This document shows, in pieces, positions 17,100 through 19,430 of a stretch of 64,000 bases of DNA; the first letter of the stretch is position 1; every line of letters begins with the position of its first letter. This DNA comes from Pseudoxanthomonas beigongshangi (GTDB taxonomy: Bacteria; Pseudomonadota; Gammaproteobacteria; Xanthomonadales; Xanthomonadaceae): the NCBI RefSeq assembly GCF_016820515.1, contig NZ_JADHDV010000012.1, positions 1 to 64,000 of the forward strand. Reading direction: 5' to 3'. The translations under genes were made by a program, and so were the position numbers. The notes beneath the pieces were generated by a model. It had not been told where the DNA came from. It saw nothing but the letters and a program-made list of their open reading frames with translations, and did no database searches.

Positions 17100-18236
17100 A
17101 TGTCCATAGCCCTGGGACTGGCGCCCAGCGAGCAGCGCGTGCTCGACCTGCTCCGTTATCGCGGACCGATGTCCCGCGCGGAACTGTCGCGCGAATCGGA
17201 TCTGGCGCCGCCCACCCTGTCGCGACTGATCCAGCAACTGCTCGACCGCGGACTGGTGATCGAGTCCGAGAAGGTGCGCGACGGCCAGCGCGGCAAACCC
17301 GCGCAGCTGGTGCGGCTGAATCCGCGCGGCGCCTTCGCCGCCGGCATCGCCGTGCAGAGCGAATACCTGGAAGGCTGCATCGTCGACATGGAGGGCGGCG
17401 TCTGCGCGAGCGCGAGGCTGCCGCTGCCGACCCTGGCGCCGGATCAGGTGGGCGCGGCGGCCTCGCGCATGCTCGGGCAACTGATCGCCGAGGCCGGCAT
17501 CGACACGTCCCGGTTGATCGGCGCCGGCGTTTCCATGCCCGGCGTGGCGCTGGGCGCGTACGGCTCCGGCACCCGCCCCGAAGGCAACAACGATCTGCCC
17601 GACGAATTCGAGGACTGGAAGCCGCTCGATCTGCAGGCGTTCTTCGCCGGAGTGCTGGAACTGCCCTGCTGGCTGGAGAACAGCTCCAAGGCCGTGGCGC
17701 TGGCGGAAATGTATTACGGCGAGGGACAACGGCTGGGCAGTTTCGCGGTCATGCACATCGCCTACGGCTTCGGCGGCGGGTTGATCCTCGACCGCCGTCC
17801 GTTTCGTGGCGCACGCGGCCACGCCGGCGAATTCGGCGGGCTGTTCCCCTACTCCAGCATCCGCCCCTCGGGCCGCGATCTGCTCGCCTACCTGGGCGAA
17901 CGCATAGCGCGGCCGCCGCGGCATGTCCGCGACGTGGTGATCGAGGACATTCCCGAACATCTGCTCCACGGGTGGGCCGAGCGGGTCTATCCCTGCATGC
18001 ACGACCTGTGCAGGTTCCTCACCGTCGCGCTGGACCTGGACGGCATCGTCCTGCACGGCCTGATTCCGGAAAAGCTGCTGCACCTGCTGGCCGATCTCCT
18101 GCGCCAGCGCGTGCCGCAGACCCTGCCGCCCGAACTCGTCATGCCCCGCGTCGTGGTCTCGCCCCTGTCCGCTTCCAGCCTGAGCGTCGGCGCCGCCAGC
18201 CTGCCGCTGCACTACACCACCGCCGCCACCCCGTAG
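17100..18236 (+). CDS. ROK-family transcriptional regulator
   Basis: 378 residues. An N-terminal winged helix (about 10-65: MSRAELSRESDLAPPTLSRL) is followed by a ROK fold (FAAGIAVQSEYLEGCIVD; GAGVSMPG; RGHAGEFGG). The CxCGxxGCxE zinc motif that normally follows the GHAGE segment is missing: here GHAGEFGGLFPYSSIRPSGR. It is therefore a NagC/XylR-like repressor and not a sugar kinase, and it lacks the structural zinc site. It is divergent from the TonB receptor at 14379-16940, its likely target. Its TAG stop is part of the GTAG head of a REP-like palindrome. Confidence 0.88.
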   Translation: MSIALGLAPSEQRVLDLLRYRGPMSRAELSRESDLAPPTLSRLIQQLLDRGLVIESEKVRDGQRGKPAQLVRLNPRGAFAAGIAVQSEYLEGCIVDMEGGVCASARLPLPTLAPDQVGAAASRMLGQLIAEAGIDTSRLIGAGVSMPGVALGAYGSGTRPEGNNDLPDEFEDWKPLDLQAFFAGVLELPCWLENSSKAVALAEMYYGEGQRLGSFAVMHIAYGFGGGLILDRRPFRGARGHAGEFGGLFPYSSIRPSGRDLLAYLGERIARPPRHVRDVVIEDIPEHLLHGWAERVYPCMHDLCRFLTVALDLDGIVLHGLIPEKLLHLLADLLRQRVPQTLPPELVMPRVVVSPLSASSLSVGAASLPLHYTTAATP

Positions 18237-18375
18237 AGCGGAGCTCGCTCCGCTGCTCCTCCGGCACCGCCCGAATCCACGAAGCCGAGCAAGCTCGGCT
18301 CTACGTAGAGCGGAGCTTGCTCCGCTGCTTTCCACCGCCGCTCGAATCCGCGGAGCCGAGCAAGCTCGGCTCCAC
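18233..18375. repeat. two pairs of GTAG-headed REP-like palindromes
   Basis: Four related stem-loops: GTAGAGCGGAGCTCGCTCCG (from 18233), AGCCGAGCAAGCTCGGCT with CTAC tail (18283-18304), GTAGAGCGGAGCTTGCTCCG (from 18305), and AGCCGAGCAAGCTCGGCT with CCAC tail (to 18375). They alternate in orientation, like BIMEs. GTAG-headed palindromes are known in Stenotrophomonas (SMAG elements) and related genomes. They lie between convergent genes and could end or stabilise both transcripts. Confidence 0.85.
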
Positions 18376-18407
18376 CGCATTCGACGCGCCGCCATCGCGG
18401 CTGACGC

Positions 18408-19430
18408 TCAATCCAGCTTCACCACCAGCTTGCCGAAGTTGCGTCCCTTGAGCAGGCCGAAGAAGGCTTCGGGCGCGTTCTCCAGGCCTTCCACGACGTC
18501 CTCGCGATACTGGATGCGGCCGTCCGCCAGCCATTGGCCCATCTCTTCCAGGAAGCGGGGAAACAGATCGATGAAATCGCGCTGGATGAAGCCGCGCACG
18601 CTCAGGCGCTGGCGCAGGATCTGGCTGAAGAATCCGGGCAGGCGATCCGGTCCCGGCAATACCTGGCCGCGCGCGTTGTAGGTGGCAATCGTGCCGCAGA
18701 CCGGGATCCGGGCGAAGTCGTTGAGCAGGGGAACGACCGCGTCGAACACCTTGCCACCCACGTTCTCGAAGTACACGTCGATGCCATCCGGTACCGCGGC
18801 GCGCAGCTGCTCGGAAAAATCATCCGCGCGGTGATCCAGCGCGACGTCGAAGCCGATCGTTTCCAGGTACCGCCGCTTGGCCTCGCCGCCGGCGATGCCG
18901 ACGGTGCGCGCACCGCGCATCTTCGCGATCTGGCCGACCGTGGCGCCGACCGGGCCGCTGGCGGCGGCGACCACCAGCGTTTCCCCCGGCTGCGGCTTGC
19001 CGATCTCGTGCAGGCCCGCGTAAGCAGTGAAGCCCGGCATTCCGTACACGCCCAGCGCCGTGCTGATCGGCAGCGTCATGCCGTCGAGCCTGCGCGTGAT
19101 CGCATCGCCATCGACGACCACGAACGTTTGCCAGCCGCCCGTGGCCACGACCTGATCGCCCACCGCGAATCCGGGATGGCGGGATTCCAGCACCTCGCCC
19201 ACCGTGCGCCCTTCCATGACGTCGTCGATGGCCACCGGCGGCGAATAGGAACGCCCGGCATCCATGCGTCCGCGCATGTACGGATCCAGCGACAGGTAGC
19301 GGTTGCGCAGCAGCACCTGGCCCGGACCGGGCGCGGGCACCGGCAATCGTTCGAGCCGGAAGTGGGACGCGTCGGGCTCGCCACTCGGACGCGCCGCCAG
19401 GACGATACGGGTGTTGATGGGATTGCTCAT
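18408..19430 (-). CDS. NADP-dependent medium-chain oxidoreductase (zinc-independent, CurA/leukotriene B4 dehydrogenase-like)
   Basis: 340 residues. LSLDPYMRGRM near residues 47-57 is the signature of the prostaglandin-reductase/CurA branch. The cofactor fold is AAASGPVGATVGQIAKMRGA, and YFENVGGKVFDAV is also typical. These enzymes reduce activated double bonds of enones with NADPH, without zinc. The gene stands alone between the REP-like repeats and a CHAD gene, so it is probably a housekeeping detoxification enzyme. Confidence 0.92.
   Translation of the reverse strand: MSNPINTRIVLAARPSGEPDASHFRLERLPVPAPGPGQVLLRNRYLSLDPYMRGRMDAGRSYSPPVAIDDVMEGRTVGEVLESRHPGFAVGDQVVATGGWQTFVVVDGDAITRRLDGMTLPISTALGVYGMPGFTAYAGLHEIGKPQPGETLVVAAASGPVGATVGQIAKMRGARTVGIAGGEAKRRYLETIGFDVALDHRADDFSEQLRAAVPDGIDVYFENVGGKVFDAVVPLLNDFARIPVCGTIATYNARGQVLPGPDRLPGFFSQILRQRLSVRGFIQRDFIDLFPRFLEEMGQWLADGRIQYREDVVEGLENAPEAFFGLLKGRNFGKLVVKLD

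Follow-up and report, generated by a model that had tools for sequence, protein, structure and literature searches.

When a mobile palindrome supplies the stop codon of a host gene, it could either have redefined the end of the encoded protein or have come to rest at an end that already existed. We considered this question for a regulator gene of Pseudoxanthomonas beigongshangi (RefSeq assembly GCF_016820515.1, hereafter G000), taking as the window the first 64,000 nucleotides of contig NZ_JADHDV010000012.1. The gene (positions 17100–18236, plus strand) encodes a ROK-family protein of 378 aa with an N-terminal winged-helix (MarR-like) domain and a match of 50.9 bits to the Pfam ROK model (PF00480). 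Its open reading frame terminates with ACC CCG TAG, and the stop codon (18234–18236) lies inside the first unit of a repeat array; the G at 18233, with which the GTAG head of this unit begins, also completes the final proline codon (CCG) as its third base. The statement in the original prediction that the GTAG of the first palindrome gives the TAG stop was thus seen directly at positions 18233–18236. Because the neighboring gene, encoding a zinc-binding dehydrogenase-like oxidoreductase (18408–19430, minus strand; PF16884 and PF00107), is convergent to the ROK gene and has its stop 32 bp from the array, the array occupies a convergent intergenic gap.

We located the units of the array with a 22-base pattern, GTAGAGCSGAGCWYGCTCSGCT, allowing up to three mismatches. 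Three units matched without mismatches: unit 1 at 18233–18254 (plus strand, GTAGAGCGGAGCTCGCTCCGCT), which supplies the ROK stop, unit 2 at 18283–18304 (minus strand, on which it reads GTAGAGCCGAGCTTGCTCGGCT) and unit 3 at 18305–18326 (plus strand, GTAGAGCGGAGCTTGCTCCGCT). Unit 4, at 18354–18375 (minus strand, GTGGAGCCGAGCTTGCTCGGCT), has one mismatch and begins with GTGG, whereas the other three heads are GTAG; given this head, the array may be partly in decay. An extra match at 18350–18371 (plus strand, three mismatches) is the palindrome of unit 4 on the opposite strand, and the pattern did not occur in 100 shuffles of the window. The four alternating GTAG-class palindromes that had been proposed for 18233–18375 were therefore borne out, in the order + − + −. 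The array is BIME-like, with a tail-to-tail dimer at 18233–18304 and a second copy at 18305–18375, and because 62 of the 72 aligned columns are identical between these dimers, it looks like a duplicated tail-to-tail pair. The RNA of positions 18225–18380 has a predicted folding energy of −73.9 kcal/mol (z = −4.47), a value reached by none of 200 shuffled sequences.

The array is an ordinary GTAG-type REP/BIME, with GTAG directly 5′ of a short palindrome and many dispersed copies. A search of the 4.23 Mb genome for the unit, as had been proposed for this locus, recovered 99 + 101 copies with up to two mismatches, compared with 0 for the reversed pattern. Two arm types, AGCCGAGC/GCTCGGCT and AGCGGAGC/GCTCCGCT, are found among these units. 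Within the genus, the unit is carried by 33 of 38 genomes, among which G035 contains 350 copies, and is absent from the remaining five. The RAYT transposase that was to be looked for alongside the repeats is also present. Two Y1 transposase genes occur in the genome, and the product of one of them (G000:C1:29321-29917, equivalent to L045:3822-4418) matches NF047646 (NCBIfam REP_Tyr_transpos) with 146 bits against a cut-off of 80 and contains an HVH motif, although the gene call has a low margin (0.12) and its start is probably over-long. An exact unit, as part of a REP pair, lies upstream of this gene and another unit lies downstream, the TAG of which serves as the stop codon of the RAYT gene itself. 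This arrangement is a REPtron, and the unit of the window array therefore flanks its cognate RAYT on both sides. The second Y1 transposase gene adjoins a different palindrome pair, TTGTGGGAGCGACGTGAGTCGCGA (L009:1286-1353), which probably represents a further REP family served by a RAYT of its own; a pattern for this palindrome had no match in the window.

Whether the repeat altered the ROK protein could be judged from a relative in which the gene is free of it. Among 395 genomes of the family, the sole close ortholog was found in a genome of another genus (G242), with 76% identity over residues 2–378; the next-best homolog reached 32% identity. Elsewhere in the genus, the 37 further genomes yielded only distant ROK homologs (29–35% identity, in three genomes), a scan of named genomes with the ROK protein found no relative, and a plasmid search for a closer ortholog returned 972 records, all below 60% identity. 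The window protein ends in SLPLHYTTAATP followed by TAG (HYTTAATP-TAG), and the G242 protein ends at the same residue in SLPMHFTTAAAP followed by TGA (HFTTAAAP-TGA), with no repeat at the 3′ end of the gene. A short core of the unit, GTAGNGCCGA, which covers the GCCGA arm type only, had 13 matches in the G242 genome, compared with 45 for a reversed control. The suggestion that the protein may owe its present end to a repeat insertion is contradicted by this one ortholog, in which a repeat-free gene stops at the homologous position, the very outcome named beforehand as decisive against it. As far as one relative can indicate, the palindrome left the ROK protein without visible change. The array sits at a synteny break between the two genomes. 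Upstream of the G242 gene lies a divergent gene whose start resembles that of the TonB receptor gene in the window (by eye), so that a receptor-like gene and the ROK gene are common to both, while the downstream gene differs and is one that we take to be of the LysR type in G242. Because synteny breaks downstream of the stop, the comparison does not show the exact empty site.

We consider it highly probable that the array represents a small BIME from an ordinary GTAG REP family, which was spread by RAYT, landed at the ROK stop with the protein end kept and was then duplicated. The unit would most likely have been mobilized by its cognate RAYT, a Y1/HUH transposase, and the array would have come into the convergent gap between the ROK and oxidoreductase genes. 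There, the GTAG of the outer head would have replaced or coincided with the old ROK stop, leaving the frame and the last proline intact, and the dimer would have been duplicated afterwards.

We further analyzed other gene ends in a sample of 38 regions of the same genome (476,335 bases, the window included), which contained 136 units in 50 clusters. The sample was centered on unit copies with 0 mismatches (about 100 of the 200) rather than on the whole genome, and its genes were called by a home-made Markov model that placed some starts wrongly. With these gene calls, the 50 clusters are mainly extragenic and near gene 3′ ends; unit orientation alternates in other clusters as well, though not in all. 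For 47 called gene 3′ ends, the nearest unit within 60 nt presented its head, compared with 12 for which it presented its tail. Sixteen of the 47 ended exactly at the TAG of the head, while every other single distance accounted for at most five, and none of the 47 fell between −30 and −5 of a REP head. Among these 16 genes are spoT, proA, purD and the RAYT gene. In a 17th called gene, L046:14108-15175, the frame passes through one unit and terminates in the TAG of the following one, which has three mismatches; the C-terminus of its product is thus REP-encoded, a possible true case of a changed protein end.

A recognizable unit occurs in genome G015 at about 16 of the 24 G000 clusters for which both flanks were matched (by eye), so that G015 offers few empty sites, and decayed-looking units are frequent in genome G022. 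For these reasons, we used genome G005, which has no copy of the unit, as a repeat-free outgroup, and examined 12 stretches and six loci of it. Orthologs were found there for five of the 16 genes, and four of the five proteins, namely SpoT, ProA, a prepilin-peptidase-like protein and an SDR protein, have the identical end residue in G005; the fifth, PurD, ends in G005 within two residues of its end in G015, if a duplication in G000 is set aside. We also read by eye the ends of these five genes at 27–30 loci each, G000 included (27–38 genomes matched per gene, with loci taken from the best 30). The end residue was the same at 29 of 30 loci for SpoT (the remaining one having one extra residue), at all 27 for the SDR protein and at all 30 for the prepilin-peptidase-like protein. 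For ProA, the nearest relatives share the same end and more distant ones vary, and PurD ends within a few residues at most loci, the internal duplication of G000 again set aside.

Several individual ends deserve mention. The PurD protein of G000 (L076:4655-6007, minus strand; 450 aa) contains a 20-residue in-frame tandem duplication, DGEFHRNDIGWRAIAREKPT, immediately before its REP-supplied stop, and the G015 protein (430 aa), which also has a REP stop, is free of the duplication. In G024, a separate GTAG palindrome-like stretch, GTAGACCGGAGTTTGTCCGGCT, gives the purD stop at a slightly different residue (L169). In seven relatives (L090, L092, L094, L095, L097, L098 and L100), another GTAG palindrome, GTAGGGCGGGC continuing to GCCCGCC, lies one base after the TGA of spoT (by eye), so that this gene end has received two REP-like families. 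For the GFO/IDH-family protein encoded by the REP-at-stop gene at L069, the best matches (95% and 86% identity) were Pseudoxanthomonas records; the relative at 86% stops at the same position, with GCG-TAG, and has a different GTAG palindrome-like stretch after it in place of the unit of the window array, and the ends of farther relatives are varied and mostly TGA (24 relatives listed).

If protein ends are kept, it can still be asked whether the repeat or the TAG came first. In G005, the stop is TAG in three of the five orthologs (ProA, prepilin-peptidase-like and SDR), compared with two of 54 genes without a REP nearby and one of 12 genes that have a REP close to the stop, yet not at it (Fisher's exact test, P = 0.003, in a post hoc comparison of only five genes). 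TAG is commoner in G000 (47/318) and G015 (13/112) than in the G005 comparison set (2/54), so that this contrast would weaken against those genomes. The SDR gene ends in TGG-TAG at 25 of the 27 loci, 23 of which have no unit at the stop (by eye; L172–L198). Similarly, in G015, the counterpart of the gene at L065 is of equal length and ends in CCA-TAG without a unit, and the unit-free spoT gene ends in CAA-TAG.

Such stops could have been left by older REPs that decayed at the same positions in relatives now free of them, an explanation that we regard as rather doubtful for the TAGs as a whole. G022 has decayed-looking units after the same TAG at the SpoT, ProA, PurD and prepilin-peptidase-like genes (by eye). 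For a quantitative comparison, we counted matches to the unit in the 18 bases after TAG and compared them with background, omitting G000, G015 and G022. This remnant score exceeded background at the TAG loci of ProA (six loci, 7.67 versus 5.82) and of the prepilin-peptidase-like gene (13 loci, 7.46 versus 6.05, with a best value of 12/18). Together with the G022 units, these scores make fossil TAGs a rival that has to be weighed. However, the TAG loci of the SDR gene (22 loci, 5.50 versus 5.95) and of SpoT (5.43 versus 5.86) did not rise above background. The score is also not specific, because the TGA loci of SpoT scored highly (7.08 versus 5.81) owing to another palindrome present there.

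Alternatively, the TAG or GTAG might have existed before the repeat, with GTAG REPs preferentially settling on existing TAG stops, so that the TAG was a landing site for insertion or a site at which stop and head later merged. The G005 contrast, the two G015 genes and the SDR loci, where the bases following the stop are no more unit-like than background, argue for this possibility, which we nevertheless judge unlikely. The ROK gene, with TGA in G242, does not fit, nor do PurD, whose stop is TGA in G005 and at 25 of 27 loci outside G000, G015 and G022, and SpoT, whose stop is TAA in G005 and TAG at 7 of 27 loci. Moreover, the favorable comparison involves five genes, measured against a genome in which TAG is scarcer, and ProA in G005 has CTAG, not GTAG. 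We abandoned the broader idea that GTAG is the insertion site of every REP, as G005 has no GTAG near the places where a G000 REP shortly follows the stop (first 37 bases after the stop, by eye, unaligned). Taken together, some repeats probably brought their TAG with them, and others may have landed on an existing one. If existing stops were indeed preferred, the long-noted tendency of REPs to supply stops would mostly reflect targeting, with no change to the protein end; among the titles and abstract openings in the literature searched, none was on this idea.

It is very improbable that the repeat inserted within the ROK coding sequence and created a new C-terminus through its TAG, so that the protein was truncated or otherwise changed. 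The TAG is literally within the repeat, and the readthrough gene at L046 indicates that REPs can change protein ends in this genome. However, the repeat-free G242 protein has the same end residue, as do the four G005 proteins, and random in-frame insertion predicts a spread of lost residues, of which we found none beyond two (PurD). Still less credible is a role of the array mainly as a transcription terminator between convergent genes rather than as a mobile repeat, for despite the convergent position and the strong hairpins, no intrinsic terminator, with a T run behind a G+C-rich hairpin, was found at 18150–18450, and the unit has 200 dispersed copies and a RAYT.

The BIME that landed at an existing protein end is of limited importance as a single locus, being a textbook REP/BIME with a kind of stop overlap that is already in print. 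It is, however, a clean case against equating a repeat that supplies a stop with a repeat that reshaped a protein. The 16 sampled stops in REP heads, together with the preservation of protein ends in those repeat-free relatives that were compared, also offer a way to test how RAYTs select the sites of REPs. The effect of the array on its host is probably modest, although strong RNA hairpins beginning at a stop could tune translation or the stability of the 3′ end.

These features can be compared with known systems. The GTAG-tagged REP superfamily, whose termini are described as often providing TAG stop codons (Di Nocera et al. 2013, PMC3733652), shares with the present family the GTAG head, the short palindrome, the high copy number, the paired units, the preference for gene 3′ ends and the use of the head TAG as a stop. 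In that text, ‘X. oryzae’ occurs and the words Xanthomonas, Lysobacter and Pseudoxanthomonas do not. According to PMC8266576, TnpAREP/RAYT proteins use GTAG and the stem to recognize REPs in single-stranded form, which they cleave at CT, and its abstract calls the mechanisms of REP dissemination poorly understood. In Nunvar et al. (2010, PMC2817692), the Stenotrophomonas Smal1 REP is given as TGTAGAGCCGAGCCCATGCTCGGCT; it shares with our unit the head, the arms AGCCGAGC/GCTCGGCT and the association of RAYT genes with flanking REPs. Its loop is CCAT, whereas ours is TT or TC, and units with AGCGGAGC/GCTCCGCT arms also occur here; thus, the arms are alike and the loop is different, and the window unit is not of the Smal1 sequence type as given there. 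Reduced translation is reported in PMC12306157 for E. coli REPs situated within 15 nt of a stop codon, and the hairpin of the ROK array likewise starts at the stop codon, in a different unit and a different host. Finally, the array has the alternating orientation of a BIME, its four units (+ − + −) forming two tail-to-tail dimers, and it differs from other BIMEs in having two dimers only, which adjoin without a spacer between them.
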